This document shows, in pieces, positions 2,007 to 4,654 of a DNA stretch of 36,960 nucleotides; position 1 is the first letter of the stretch; each line of letters begins with the position of its first letter. Where the stretch lies: positions 1 through 36,960 of IMG/VR virus record IMGVR_UViG_3300027848_000054. One strand, given 5' to 3'. Below the pieces are notes generated by a model. The model was not told the DNA's origin, did not search any database, and saw nothing but the letters and a program-made list of their open reading frames with translations. The DNA comes from a virus. A program made the position numbers and the translations under genes.

Positions 2007-3947
2007 ATGTCTTCCCCACTTTTAGACCTAGCAGTTCGGCGGCAAGTTTTGCTTGAGCGTCTCAAGTCTGGGCAAGTCCGGTCGTTTGAAAAAGCATTTC
2101 GCGAAATTGAACGGATCGTAAAGCTCGCATTTGGTGCGACCGGCGACGATCTGAACAACCAAGGGCGGAGATATTTAGCCGGGTTCCTCCGGGACCTCAA
2201 ACGGGATTTGGCGAAACCCTTGGCAACCGAAATCAAACTCTACACTCTTGAACTCGAAAAGACAGCGGGTTTGTACGCCTCGGCGGAAGCCTTTGACTTG
2301 AAGAAAACCGTTGCAGGTGTTGGGACGCTGAAAGTCCCCGACGCGGCCAAAGCTTTCAAGCGGGCGTTAGATCTCCCGATGTCCCATTCGGGCGAACTGT
2401 TGACCGACTTTATCAAGAGCTTTTCAGGCCGCGAAACTGCCCGCGTGGTTGACCGGGTGCGTCAGGGAGTGGCGCAAGGGCGAACCAATCAAGAACTTGT
2501 CAGGTCAGTGGTTGGGACAAAAGGGCGCAACTTCCGAGACGGCATTTTGGCCACCTCCAGGCGCAACGCGCAATCCATGATCCGGACGGCAACCCAACAC
2601 GTTGCAAGCTCCGCCCGGCTTGACGTTTGGGAGGCAAATCCAGACGTGGTCAAAAAATACCAATGGATCTCGACGTTAGATCGGCGCACATCTTCAGTTT
2701 GTTTCACAGGTTTAACCACCCCTCGTCCCATCGGGCAAATTTTGAACATGTTCCGTCGCACCTATCAAGGGCAAGTTTTCATCATCGCAACAGCCGCAGG
2801 CGAGCAATTCCGAGCCACGCCAAACCACCCGATATTGACGGCGGATGGTTGGAGAGCGGCCAAGGAAATCACACCAAGCGATAAGGTCTTGGACTTCACT
2901 TTTAGCGAGTTTGTCCCGGAAGGCGACTGCATAGAAATGCAACCCAGCTTTTCCGCAATCGCGGATGCGCTTTTCCATCCATCCGTTAGCGATATTGTTT
3001 CTGTAAGTCCCACGCCCGCAGATTTCCACGGCGACGGACAGAGTGGGCAAAACAAGGTCAATACTGCCAAACCCAAGCCTGAACTGGGGCGTGGTTTCAA
3101 CCCCTTCCCGATTGAGGATACCAGACACAAAACGCTCATTTGGTTGCATGATGCCGGATTTTTCACGGCTCACAGCGGCTTTGGTTCGTTGGACATCACT
3201 GGGCTTCCACCCATCCAACCCCCTAAGATCGTGCCCATGTCGCTTCAGAGCGGCGAACAAACCAGAACGACTGACCCCCAAGCGGGACAGGATTTCCGAG
3301 GGTCTGGCCCCACTTTGGAAGAGCCCAACAGCTTTGAGAGTTCGGGGGTGTTCTTGGCCCCTCGGGACGTGCTCCAAGACGCTAAGGCGCTTCAGAAAGG
3401 TGGTGACTGTGGTTGTGGTTGCGCCGAATTGCCTCCCAATTTGGTTGGCCGGGGTGCCATCGCGCCAAAGTTTCAAAATGTCATTAGTGTGGGGAGTGAG
3501 TTTGTTTCTTGCCATGTTTATAACTTTGAGACTAGTTCAGGATACTACATGGTGGGTCGTGCGCTTGTCAAGAACTGTCAGAGTTTGGACCAAAGAGACT
3601 TTGAGGTCGGGAAGGGACCAACCCCGCCAATCCATGTTCGGTGCCGGAGCACAACAATCGCGGTTATCTCTGAAGAATTCGATTTCCTGAAAGGGGGCCG
3701 GACACGCTCGGCAGAGTTCGGCCCGGTCAAAGGTGACAAATCATATTTCGATTGGCTAAAGCGCCAAAATAAAAGCGTCCAATCAGAAGCACTTGGCCCG
3801 ACCCGAGCCAAGCTATTTTCTGAGGGGGGACTTTCAGCGGAGAAATTTTCGGCTCTTCAGTTGGACAAAAATTTTGCACCTCTCACCTTGGACGAAATGC
3901 AAGCCCTTGAACCTTTGGCATTCAAGAAAGCGGGTCTATCGGGTTAA
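2007..3947 (+). CDS. MuF-like head morphogenesis protein interrupted by an intein
   Basis: The precursor is 646 residues: an N-extein of 231, an intein of 292 (residues 232-523) and a C-extein of 123. Splicing would give a 354-residue protein. The joined extein reads WISTLDRRTSSV-CQSLDQRDF, followed by PPIHVRCRSTT, the C-terminal signature of Mu gpF/SPP1 gp7-like minor head proteins (D-x-R-T-S, then P-P-x-H-x-x-C-R). These proteins associate with the portal and take part in head assembly or DNA release. The intein sits exactly before the conserved cysteine of this motif, which serves as the +1 nucleophile. The ATG at 2007 follows a TTGAAA/TTTGCT promoter-like pair. The 3' end overlaps the convergent clamp gene by 26 bases. 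Confidence 0.9.
   Translation: MSSPLLDLAVRRQVLLERLKSGQVRSFEKAFREIERIVKLAFGATGDDLNNQGRRYLAGFLRDLKRDLAKPLATEIKLYTLELEKTAGLYASAEAFDLKKTVAGVGTLKVPDAAKAFKRALDLPMSHSGELLTDFIKSFSGRETARVVDRVRQGVAQGRTNQELVRSVVGTKGRNFRDGILATSRRNAQSMIRTATQHVASSARLDVWEANPDVVKKYQWISTLDRRTSSVCFTGLTTPRPIGQILNMFRRTYQGQVFIIATAAGEQFRATPNHPILTADGWRAAKEITPSDKVLDFTFSEFVPEGDCIEMQPSFSAIADALFHPSVSDIVSVSPTPADFHGDGQSGQNKVNTAKPKPELGRGFNPFPIEDTRHKTLIWLHDAGFFTAHSGFGSLDITGLPPIQPPKIVPMSLQSGEQTRTTDPQAGQDFRGSGPTLEEPNSFESSGVFLAPRDVLQDAKALQKGGDCGCGCAELPPNLVGRGAIAPKFQNVISVGSEFVSCHVYNFETSSGYYMVGRALVKNCQSLDQRDFEVGKGPTPPIHVRCRSTTIAVISEEFDFLKGGRTRSAEFGPVKGDKSYFDWLKRQNKSVQSEALGPTRAKLFSEGGLSAEKFSALQLDKNFAPLTLDEMQALEPLAFKKAGLSG
2700..3575 (+). other. 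Intein in the MuF-like protein (292 residues), split by an antisense nuclease gene
   Basis: Protein-splicing element. Block A is CFTGLTTPRPIGQ with nucleophile Cys1. Block B is ATPNHPILTADGW, including the T-x-x-H motif. Block F is VYNFETSSGYYM. Block G is ALVKN followed by +1 Cys. The usual penultimate His of block G is Lys here. The splicing segments occupy about 80 residues at the N end and 30 at the C end. Between them lies a linker of about 180 residues with no LAGLIDADG or HNH motif and little recognisable fold in the sense direction. That linker lies opposite the leftward nuclease gene at 3515-2712. It carries a DFHGDG motif (residues 339-344 of the precursor) directly opposite the nuclease active-site glutamate. 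Confidence 0.88.
2712..3515 (-). CDS. Putative antisense homing endonuclease inside the intein (two HTH segments plus Vsr/DUF559-like nuclease)
   Basis: 267 residues on the strand opposite the intein. Residues 11-46 and 60-95 each look like a helix-turn-helix; the cores are ANQIGRQFGATTTTVTTFLKR and PSEILSRLGVSRSGLFAALKR. Residues 125-215 resemble the PD-(D/E)XK/EDxHD fold of Vsr and DUF559 proteins: NERF with Glu127, PQF with Gln144, GSIDLVLP with Asp153, and SVAVEICG with Glu164, then a basic helix (KRIRDCGKAGLHFYAV). This is the organisation expected of a DNA-binding nicking or cleaving homing enzyme. The last 70 or so residues lie opposite the splicing N-domain and may be partly non-functional read-through. 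The ATG at 3515 has no Shine-Dalgarno, like its neighbours. Codons are in exact complementary register with the sense frame. Upstream on the same strand is the clamp gene, 407 bases away, with no visible terminator between. A long antisense frame alone would prove nothing; the call rests on the domain content. Confidence 0.78.
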   Translation of the reverse strand: MARNKLTPHTNDILKLWRDGTPANQIGRQFGATTTTVTTFLKRLSVLEHVPRGQEHPRTLKAVGLFQSGARPSEILSRLGVSRSGLFAALKRHGHDLRGLDGWKPSDVQRTKAAVSREKSGIMQPNERFVSGILNREGVETTPQFRLGFGSIDLVLPTLSVAVEICGRGTYRNNIANGWMEKRIRDCGKAGLHFYAVAFRDKLAKSEVQDLIAWCDFLGRSPTIRRQYRVVWRGSELLACGCCDDENLPLIGATEHVQNLPDGTRGG

Positions 3948-4617
3948 TTTCCCGGGCTTTCTCAACGAGGTTTGCCAGCATCCCGGCCCCTATTTCGCCC
4001 GCGTCAGGGTTGAGTTTCGCGACCATCTGTGCCAACTCTTCCAAGGCTTGGAGTTTGTCATGCCTTTGCTCCTGGGGTGACTTCTCGCCCTCCTTGACTT
4101 TGACAGGCATAATCACGCCATGCCCAACGGCGACAGCTGTCTTCAGACCGTGAGGGGCCACTCGCAGCCCCGAAGAACCTTTCAGGGTCTCAATTTTCAC
4201 CACCGCCGTGCCCAAACTTTTTGCAAGTTTGGCGAGCAATTCAGCGTTGATGCAAATCGAGGCTGCGACTTCTGAGTCCTCTGCGGGAATCACCATGCGC
4301 CAATTTGGGAATTGGGTGTCAGCGCGGGGGAAGGTTCTGCCGTCTGAAAGTGTCACTTTGGCACTGTCAGAGCAATCCAGTGTGAGGTTGTCCTCGCGCT
4401 TGGCCAACTTACGGGCTTCTTTCAGGGCAGCAATGGGGATTAGCCCGGCGGTGTCCTCTTTTCCCAGATCCACCGGGGTGACCGAAATAACATGTCCACT
4501 AGTGGACACCACATTCCCAACCCCCTTTGTGATATCGAGGTATGGAGCCTCAAGGGATGGTCGGTTTTGTTTTACCGAGCAGGCAAGTTCGGTGATGTGG
4601 TCTTTGGGTAGTTTCAT
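3922..4617 (-). CDS. DnaN-like sliding clamp (shortened)
   Basis: 231 residues from the ATG at 4617; a GTG three codons upstream (4626) overlaps the promoter. Clamps encircle DNA and tether the polymerase. Two features resemble bacterial beta clamps: FPNWRMVIP near residue 104, like the FP-D-x-R-x-V-I-P segment, and GVIMPVKV near residue 168, like the V-V-M-P-M-R end. With roughly 180 folded residues plus a charged helical tail of about 50, it is much shorter than the three-domain beta clamp (about 366), so it probably has two domains and might assemble as a trimer. It is separated from the other replication genes and lies leftward between MuF and scaffold, with its own promoter. Its end overlaps MuF by 26 bases, and the antisense nuclease gene lies downstream on the same strand. 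Confidence 0.68.
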   Translation of the reverse strand: MKLPKDHITELACSVKQNRPSLEAPYLDITKGVGNVVSTSGHVISVTPVDLGKEDTAGLIPIAALKEARKLAKREDNLTLDCSDSAKVTLSDGRTFPRADTQFPNWRMVIPAEDSEVAASICINAELLAKLAKSLGTAVVKIETLKGSSGLRVAPHGLKTAVAVGHGVIMPVKVKEGEKSPQEQRHDKLQALEELAQMVAKLNPDAGEIGAGMLANLVEKAREINPIDPLS

Positions 4618-4625
4618 GGCCCGCA

Positions 4626-4654
4626 CTTAAAAACGGTTTACATTTAGCTGTCAA
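4626..4654 (-). promoter_or_regulatory. Putative leftward promoter, TTGACA-17-TTTAAG
   Basis: TTGACA (4654-4649), spacer gctaaatgtaaaccgtt, TTTAAG (4631-4626), then the clamp ATG at 4617. It would give an almost leaderless clamp message, and by read-through could supply the antisense nuclease at 3515. It is back to back with a rightward box pair at 4662-4689. Confidence 0.6.

Follow-up and report, generated by a model that had tools for sequence, protein, structure and literature searches.

The MuF-like head morphogenesis gene in a viral DNA stretch of 36,960 nucleotides (IMG/VR record IMGVR_UViG_3300027848_000054, positions 1 to 36,960; hereafter the window) very probably contains, judging from sequence comparisons and a predicted structure, a mobile intein with its homing endonuclease encoded by a separate gene on the antisense strand, which overlaps nearly the whole intein. 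It is likely that this intein belongs to a large and hitherto unrecognised class of mobile inteins with full bidirectional coding, in which a splicing intein and a free homing endonuclease are encoded on opposite strands in register over about 230–300 codons, and which occurs in phages of many hosts, in bacterial contigs of several phyla and in several host genes.

The intein and the gene opposite it

The features of the window are as follows.

2007..3947, +, MuF-like head morphogenesis gene with an intein inside (646 aa; phrog_241, E = 2.8e-104)
2700..3575, +, intein of 292 codons (motif scan)
2700-2702, 3573-3575 and 3576-3578, +, intein ends: Cys1, Asn292 and Cys+1
2817..2831, +, intein block B, TPNHP (sequence, motif scan)
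3513..3527, +, intein block F, HVYNF (sequence)
3021..3041, +, sense motif DFHGDGQ, shadow of antisense LSVAVEI
2712..3515, −, putative antisense endonuclease gene, 267 aa (ATG 3515-3513, stop 2714-2712), in register with the sense frame
3516..3535, −, stretch upstream of the antisense start (weak CAAAG here; GGAG-type ribosome site in most relatives)
3387..3497, −, predicted first helix-turn-helix, residues 7-43 (HTH_7 match at 5-37 below cut-off; three helices in the model)
3240..3347, −, predicted second helix-turn-helix, residues 57-92 (HTH_23 match at 60-92, E = 1.2e-5, above cut-off; model)
2790..3143, −, predicted Vsr/EDxHD-type nuclease domain, residues 125-242 (model mean pLDDT 87.9)
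3135..3137, −, Glu127 codon (E in 89/97 loci)
3057..3059, −, Asp153 codon, opposite sense V351 (D in 97/97 loci)
3024..3026, −, Glu164 codon, opposite sense F340 (E in 97/97 loci; GAA 78, GAG 19)
2967..2969, −, Arg183 codon (R in 96/97 loci)

The intein interrupts the MuF motif DRRTSSV^CQSLDQ at the point marked by the caret, and shows Cys at position 1, the TxxH of block B, a block F and a terminal Asn followed by Cys. The residue before the terminal Asn is Lys, not His. In Pfam searches the MuF protein matched PF14890, Intein_splicing (E = 7.5e-6), and PF04233 (E = 1.4e-5), neither of which reached its cut-off, and no in-frame endonuclease domain was found in it at E <= 1, the matches being to intein, Hint and MuF only. 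The first-pass annotation had suspected that FHGDG-like motifs recur in the Hint linkers of MuF proteins; by its motifs (C1, TPxHP, HVYxL and the terminal N followed by C), the Hint linker of the window protein is the middle of an intein. Nor is the system limited to MuF genes.

The antisense open reading frame (ORF; 2712-3515, −) lies opposite the intein (2700-3575), codon facing codon, and on the evidence of sequence and model it is a real gene, whose product is predicted to contain two helix-turn-helix modules and a Vsr/EDxHD-type nuclease domain. At 3021-3059 the MuF frame reads GATTTCCACGGCGACGGACAGAGTGGGCAAAACAAGGTC (= DFHGDGQSGQNKV) and the opposite strand reads DLVLPTLSVAVEI; the pairing that the first-pass annotation had proposed is exact, with F340 (TTC, 3024-3026) facing Glu164 (GAA) and V351 (GTC, 3057-3059) facing Asp153 (GAC). 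Four E. coli phages have relatives of the antisense ORF that are 35% identical across 99% of its length, a fifth record being weaker, and the identity to another relative (L003) is 75%. Over the middle of the overlap, the window and L003 are 74% identical on the antisense side and 52% on the sense side, and the changes cluster at antisense codon position 3.

Predicted nuclease fold and family

The nuclease domain of the window protein is predicted to adopt a Vsr-like PD-(D/E)XK fold. Alignment of the model by VIA gave Z = 10.6 over 111 residues with Vsr (1cw0) and Z = 9.2 over 93 residues with I-Bth0305I (3r3p), and a profile search matched 3r3p, 'Mobile intron protein', with E = 1.5e-5. As Foldseek alone returned nothing at E <= 0.001 for the predicted model, the assignment of the fold is based on VIA-align and the profile search. 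HMM searches with the window protein's own sequence gave no nuclease family match; among the family members, MTES_1575 was matched in 54/69 and DUF559 in 21/69 (E <= 0.01), the window copy itself matching neither. The helix-turn-helix and D/E motifs anticipated behind FHGDG are present, Asp153 and Glu164 in every locus and HTH_23 in 39/69 members, which points to DNA-binding modules beside the nuclease, as in EDxHD or Vsr-like homing endonucleases. By alignment, the window has Tyr171 in a column that is His in 79/97 loci and Leu192 in a column that is Trp in 82/97; because these family residues are absent, the window copy may cut poorly.

Constraint on both strands

Of 301 relatives in IMG/VR, 80 were taken into the analysis, and the constraint on each strand was gauged by codon-position counts in place of dN/dS. 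Asp153 and Glu164 are invariant in 97 non-redundant loci, and the codon opposite Glu164 is TTC or CTC only, each complementary to one of the two codons for Glu. At Arg183 six different codons for Arg are in use, and the sense residue facing it varies. In 28 disjoint pairs, the changes at antisense positions 1, 2 and 3 numbered 2040, 1458 and 2922, respectively. Antisense identity exceeded sense identity in all 151 close non-redundant pairs, a comparison biased toward antisense identity by the recruitment of most loci through antisense similarity; the codon-position patterns and the sense-side scan described below are freer of this bias.

The sense frame is not free either, since antisense codons that would create sense stops were absent among 23,075 codons of 88 loci, against 362 expected. 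In register, the sense frame is open at 94/94 antisense-found loci, with 2-33 stops in the remaining two sense frames, and the antisense match crosses one stop in six of the 94. Among 96 non-redundant loci, blocks B and F were recognised together in 67, and each block taken by itself in 80. The earlier proposal that DFHGDG is the shadow of an overlooked antisense nuclease holds in a refined form, in which the sense frame encodes an intein and has to remain open as well.

Two other explanations of the open antisense frame were rejected. Chance openness is ruled out by the in-register antisense frame, which is open over 150 codons in 85/85 inteins and in 24/85 of their own N-exteins, together with the missing stop-complement codons. 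A mirror of a conserved sense linker is ruled out by the codon-position patterns, the six Arg183 codons and the restriction to TTC or CTC opposite Glu164.

Sense-side scan for DFHGDG

As the first-pass annotation had suspected, FHGDG-like motifs recur beyond the window: DFHGDG with Phe as TTC was found at at least 119 loci, 50 of those listed lying between intein blocks B and F, whereas with Phe as TTT it was found at 72 loci, one of them between the two blocks, where the nuclease region is apparently deleted. When one block was taken to suffice, 87/119 listed TTC loci and 3/72 TTT loci had an intein context, and from this bias the sense Phe can be read as the shadow of the catalytic Glu. TTT at this position would place Lys in the antisense active site. 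At least two of the scan loci (L198 and L220) are contigs already in the antisense-found set.

The opposite strand, which frequent stops might have closed, carries an antisense ORF that is 200 codons or longer at 50/50 listed TTC loci between the blocks. Such a frame is also present at 20/32 TTC and 14/69 TTT loci among those listed with neither block, so openness alone is weak evidence and the intein context is decisive. Among the first 39 intein-context TTC loci (from 80 of those listed), 34 have YNxD..VAVE and 31 a ribosome-site tetramer. The only exception to the TTC rule is the MuF gene of L146, which has two inteins; the second of these, with a short middle and an antisense frame of 28 codons, fits a decayed copy.

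Start of the antisense gene

In 80/97 loci the antisense start lies opposite the block F His (66 ATG and 14 GTG), as in the window, where CAT, the codon for this His, is complementary to the antisense ATG. A ribosome-site-like tetramer, usually of the GGAG type, precedes 72 of these 80 starts, and the block F Leu is encoded by CTC in 61/74 cases, with 18.5 expected. A promoter scan of the region directly before the antisense start, made in Snoke only, gave no convincing candidate.

Host genes, distribution and signs of mobility

The host genes are mostly MuF-like and also include TerL, dCMP deaminase and a metallopeptidase-like gene; an incomplete tally of 95 N-exteins, with categories that may overlap, gave 51 with PF04233, 15 with VG15, three with Phage_min_cap2 and one with dCMP deaminase, and many members match PHROG head families. 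Genome sweeps (E <= 1e-15, at most six candidates scored per genome) gave matches in 3/400, 2/398 and 7/396 genomes, each count including the centre genome, and at 11/11 genome places the nuclease match lay opposite an open frame of at least 398 codons. In Acinetobacter phage BUCT629 a relative stands free beside an uninterrupted MuF gene, and two genomes (G865 and G973) have free-standing HTH-array proteins outside inteins. Among the records viewed, the antisense gene is annotated only in Salmonella phage PK2 and Acinetobacter phages.

Phage KMB36 has an intein at the site corresponding to that of the window, and its relatives K1ind1 and fEg-Eco19 are uninterrupted. Compared with the intein-bearing Snoke, LSPA1 and KMB36, the empty sites of K1ind1 and fEg-Eco19 are exact and scarless. 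The inteins of Snoke and LSPA1 are 97.4% identical, whereas their exteins are 89.3% and 79.2% identical. The empty sites and the closer similarity of the intein than of its flanks indicate mobility, as read from the sequences of relatives and not of the window's own phage.

Proposed mechanism and alternative explanations

In the mechanism that we propose, the sense strand would give a MuF–intein precursor from which the intein splices itself out, its middle serving mainly as a spacer that must remain free of stops. The antisense strand would give a free protein, starting opposite the block F His and usually with its own Shine–Dalgarno sequence. Its two helix-turn-helix modules would bind the uninterrupted target gene, the Vsr/EDxHD domain (E127, D153 and E164) would cut or nick it, and repair from the intein-bearing copy would install the intein and the antisense gene together. 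Sequence comparison demonstrates that the gene exists and is conserved, that both strands are constrained and that starts and ribosome sites follow a pattern, as well as, in relatives, the exact empty sites and the transfer signature; the fold is predicted, and expression, splicing, cleavage and homing are inferred.

The antisense nuclease might instead be a selected gene whose main job is not homing, for instance attack on competitor phages with the empty allele or other DNA processing. Vsr-like nucleases serve in defence too. They also act in repair (1cw0), and the free-standing Acinetobacter relative fits such a role. This reading is nevertheless unlikely, because a long open frame lies opposite the nuclease at all 94 loci and all 11 genome places, with intein blocks in most, and because insertion at conserved protein motifs, exact empty alleles and excess intein similarity are expected of homing; the activity that serves homing could also attack empty alleles as a side effect.

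It is very improbable that the Hint module belongs to a MuF effector as a self-cleaving domain and is not a splicing intein, with the antisense ORF as unrelated baggage. Hint domains are known in secreted multi-domain proteins, and the Lys before the terminal Asn would suit this idea; however, Cys1, TPxHP, HVYxL and the terminal N and C are all present, the MuF motif resumes directly past the insert, insert-free relatives align without a scar and the same element occurs in TerL, dCMP deaminase and the metallopeptidase-like gene. Least credible, at a negligible probability, is the idea that the antisense ORF yields no product and is open merely because the composition in register is GC-rich and the sense linker is conserved. 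The overlap does have a median GC content of 61%, in-register antisense frames are open over 150 codons in 24/85 N-exteins, and antisense open frames reach 1335 codons (L068); yet members of 43-45% GC are open too, and the codon-position and codon-choice tests already contradict this origin, with Asp153 and Glu164 each invariant in both of their codons, Arg183 in six codons against a changing sense residue, changes clustered at antisense position 3 and antisense identity higher in every close pair. The start and ribosome-site pattern and a confident predicted fold matching Vsr and I-Bth0305I speak against it as well.

Significance

If the reading of a mobile intein with an antisense homing endonuclease is correct, many phage inteins recorded as endonuclease-free would be mobile elements after all, and recurrent phage-protein motifs such as FHGDG would be shadows of enzyme active sites. 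Such inteins will usually be taken to lack an endonuclease because the antisense gene is rarely annotated in the records viewed. Placing the endonuclease on the opposite strand uncouples splicing from homing, and the free nuclease could have its own timing and level. The roughly one hundred non-redundant loci are also a clear example from nature of long antisense coding in register, one that allows the constraints on two proteins to be weighed against one another, and the system is directly testable, as cultured E. coli phages differ by the presence or absence of the element.

Comparison with known systems

The matches listed in the literature search (titles and abstract openings, with most subscription papers outside its coverage) included no paper describing an intein with a homing endonuclease encoded antisense within it, and neither 'antisense' nor 'opposite' occurs in the main text of a survey of mycobacteriophage inteins (PMC5050341). 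The MuF intein of Snoke, which belongs to the antisense-nuclease family, is noted in the Snoke paper, from whose main text the word endonuclease is absent (PMC6776784), and the MuF intein of a Methylococcus capsulatus Mu-like prophage is said to be without a recognisable endonuclease (PMC517821). Canonical inteins of the PI-SceI type (LAGLIDADG) are likewise self-splicing inserts at conserved motifs, with an associated nuclease and optional in close relatives. In these the nuclease is fused in frame with the intein (PMC3943268), whereas here it is a protein of its own, encoded on the opposite strand with its codons facing those of the intein. Among the named families of homing endonucleases is EDxHD (PMC3943268), and I-Bth0305I resembles the present family in having a Vsr-like catalytic domain, here predicted, with DNA-binding modules; however, I-Bth0305I is intron-encoded (a mobile intron protein in its PDB entry), whereas the present family has helix-turn-helix modules and lies antisense to inteins.

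An endonuclease gene antisense to its host element has a parallel in Didymium iridis, where S956-2 is the antisense one of two introns. The homing endonuclease genes of these group I introns, S956-1 and S956-2, are oriented oppositely to each other, and according to a cited title one endonuclease is expressed from the antisense strand of rDNA (PMC13182076). Since the host element there, a group I intron, lies in rDNA, no protein is encoded opposite the endonuclease, whereas the intein here codes for protein. Dassa et al. reportedly described, in 2009, fractured genes with split inteins and a Vsr-like endonuclease between the two halves. Those systems are also reported to tie a Vsr/EDxHD-type nuclease to inteins, whereas in the present family the intein is continuous and the nuclease lies within its frame on the other strand.

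Overlapping genes in the window

The MuF-like gene of the window is interrupted by an intein, opposite which lies an in-register ORF encoding a predicted nuclease.

2007–3947, + strand: MuF-like gene, 646 codons
2700–3575, + strand: intein (Cys1, TPNHP as block B, HVYNF as block F, Asn292 then Cys+1)
2712–3515, − strand: antisense ORF, 267 codons, ATG start

The MuF-like gene matched phrog_241 head morphogenesis (E = 2.8e-104), and the intein, inserted at ...DRRTSSV^CQSLDQ..., gave an Intein_splicing signature under the Pfam cut-off (E = 7.5e-6) and has Lys, not His, as its penultimate residue. The adjoining ORF of 234 amino acids (window 3922–4626, − strand) is weakly similar to the sliding clamp of DNA polymerase III (PF02767, E = 0.01, under the cut-off), and tblastn in phages returned no relative of it; in the E. 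coli phage Snoke an annotated sliding clamp likewise lies near MuF on the opposite strand.

The sense motif facing the catalytic residues

The first-pass annotation had set the sense DFHGDG motif against the antisense catalytic residues at 3021–3059, and translation shows this facing to be exact: the + strand reads DFHGDGQSGQNKV and the − strand DLVLPTLSVAVEI, with sense F340 (TTC) opposite E164 (GAA) and sense V351 (GTC) opposite D153 (GAC). Its further guess, that DFHGDG in other genes likewise mirrors an antisense nuclease that has been overlooked, agrees with a scan of IMG/VR for DFHGDG with Phe as TTT or as TTC. The TTT form occurred at 72 loci, one of them between intein blocks B and F, whereas the TTC form occurred at at least 119, with 50 between the blocks among the matches listed; when either block alone was required, the counts were three and 87, respectively. 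This contrast is expected if the antisense Glu holds the Phe codon. All 50 TTC loci between the blocks have an antisense frame of at least 200 codons, and Gly is GGC in 50/50 and His CAC in 49/50, which the other strand reads as Ala and Val. In the sole TTT case between the blocks (L146) the nuclease region of the intein is apparently gone; this MuF gene contains two inteins, the second of which is short and keeps TDFHGDG with TTT without an antisense nuclease.

Occurrence

With the window protein as query, tblastn found five phage records, and with the relative from Gordonia phage Malisha 144 matches, the enclosing genes of which (60 of 144 listed) are annotated as head morphogenesis, minor capsid, head protein, hypothetical and so on. 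In Salmonella phage PK2 (L115:2411–3220) the antisense gene is annotated as a hypothetical protein (XRA40007.1) within a head morphogenesis gene. A six-sequence alignment as query found 301 relatives in IMG/VR (80 kept) and 13 in bacterial genomes; together with L021, a locus with a terminase host gene, these gave 94 loci, in all of which the in-register sense frame is open across the entire match, the remaining two sense frames containing two to 33 stops. The antisense match crosses one stop in 6/94. Bacterial genome sweeps, in which every count includes the centre genome and no more than six candidates were scored per genome, found the element in 3/400, 2/398 and 7/396 genomes, two of the last seven having HTH arrays outside inteins, which suggests that few bacterial genomes overall carry it. 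Long free-standing HTH-repeat proteins with no intein frame opposite are encoded in the bacterial genomes G865 and G973 (L322, L323 and L326), that of G865 with an additional Vsr-like stretch, VEYDGEHWH.

Selection on the two strands

The 94 loci, the window and 13 more loci of phage or viral origin made up a set of 108, which leaves out the near-identical L002, L005, L007 and L008 and the later L113–L116; 97 are non-redundant at 90%. In these, D153 and E164 are invariant (97/97); 89 loci conserve E127 and 96 conserve R183, the latter using six Arg codons. The Glu164 codon is GAA in 78 and GAG in 19, so that the facing sense residue is always Phe (TTC) or Leu (CTC).

Antisense identity exceeded sense identity in 151/151 close pairs and 4557/4560 of all pairs of non-redundant loci, a comparison biased in this direction because the loci were mostly found through antisense similarity. 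Summed over 28 disjoint close pairs, changes at antisense positions 1/2/3 were 2040/1458/2922, position 3 exceeding position 1 in 27 pairs. Between the window and L003, a relative with 75% antisense identity, changes at sense positions 1/2/3 were 82/24/52 mid-overlap and 102/68/141 and 37/30/73 in the exteins; between Snoke and LSPA1 (Salmonella), changes by codon position were 14/1/6 in the inteins and 9/4/65 and 14/4/47 in the exteins. TTA, CTA and TCA, each of which on the antisense strand would place a stop in the intein frame, were absent from 23,075 codons of 88 loci, against 362 expected from the extein codon usage of each gene, and thus both products seem to matter; of the 297 codons of the free-standing relative from Acinetobacter phage IME285, 12 are of this kind.

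In 80/97 loci (66 ATG and 14 GTG) the antisense start codon lies opposite the block F (HVYxL) His, the motif search having failed in the remaining 17, including the intein-free IME285 locus. A GGAG-, GAGG-, AGGA- or AAGG-type site lies upstream in 72/80, and the sense Leu codon contributing to it is CTC in 61/74 (18.5 expected). The site of the window copy is weak (CAAAG), and a promoter scan of one phage was uninformative.

The predicted nuclease

Pfam detected the HTH modules of the window antisense protein. Among this protein and 68 relatives, MTES_1575 endonuclease matched 54/69 and DUF559 21/69, the window copy matching neither; the family profile of these proteins matched 3r3p, named 'Mobile intron protein' (E = 1.5e-5). 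The AlphaFold2 model of the window protein (pLDDT 87.9, pTM 0.71) comprises two HTH units of three helices each and a nuclease domain, which VIA-align aligned with Vsr (Z = 10.6, 111 residues, 2.7 Å), 3hrl (Z = 9.6) and the I-Bth0305I catalytic domain (Z = 9.2, 93 residues, 2.8 Å). By Foldseek alone Vsr was top-ranked, but with E = 0.057. The His and Trp of most relatives are missing in the window copy (Tyr171 and Leu192 instead) and, by alignment, in L003; judged from sequence, the activity of the window copy itself is therefore less certain than that of the family. Members from Pseudomonas, Pantoea and Snoke (L013, L014 and L017) have, by alignment, one HTH module only, and another locus (L321) apparently three or more, so the length of the DNA-binding part is variable.

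Host genes and mobility

Scanning of 95 N-exteins identified Phage_Mu_F in 51, VG15 in 15, Phage_min_cap2 in three and dCMP deaminase in one. L021 lies in a large-terminase gene (Terminase_3, E = 3.5e-4, slightly under the cut-off) and L105 in a metallopeptidase-like one. In virus Rctr197k (L018:619–2025) an intein of this family interrupts the dCMP deaminase; the gene is annotated as head morphogenesis, which may derive from the intein. One gene has at least two insertion sites, RTST^C (phage KMB36) and HPN^C (Snoke), and K1ind1 and fEg-Eco19 have the same MuF without an insert, aligning scarlessly. The inteins of Snoke and LSPA1 share 97.4% DNA identity, their exteins 89.3% and 79.2%. KMB36 and Ec1-ASingh, whose intein is at RTST^C, have HFGC in place of HPNC at the second site, a change that perhaps blocks a second insertion; HPNC is present in Snoke and the intein-free relatives, and also in fEg-Eco06 and BEU35, which have the same intein.

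Acinetobacter phage BUCT629 has a free-standing relative convergent with MuF, which reads through without an intein, and IME285 has, by annotation, the same layout.

L116:3001–4601 (BUCT629) and L015:455–1348 (IME285): annotated free-standing nuclease gene convergent with MuF

This free-standing nuclease is possibly an ancestral or escaped form.

Comparison with known systems

Judged from its sequence, the element most probably represents a mobile intein whose homing endonuclease is encoded by the other strand. Among the titles and starts of abstracts listed, most subscription papers lying outside this scope, no antisense endonuclease within an intein was found, and intein homing endonucleases are described as in-frame fusions (PMC3943268). 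A group I intron of Didymium also has its endonuclease gene in antisense orientation (PMC13182076), but there, unlike in the intein here, the opposite strand is without protein coding.
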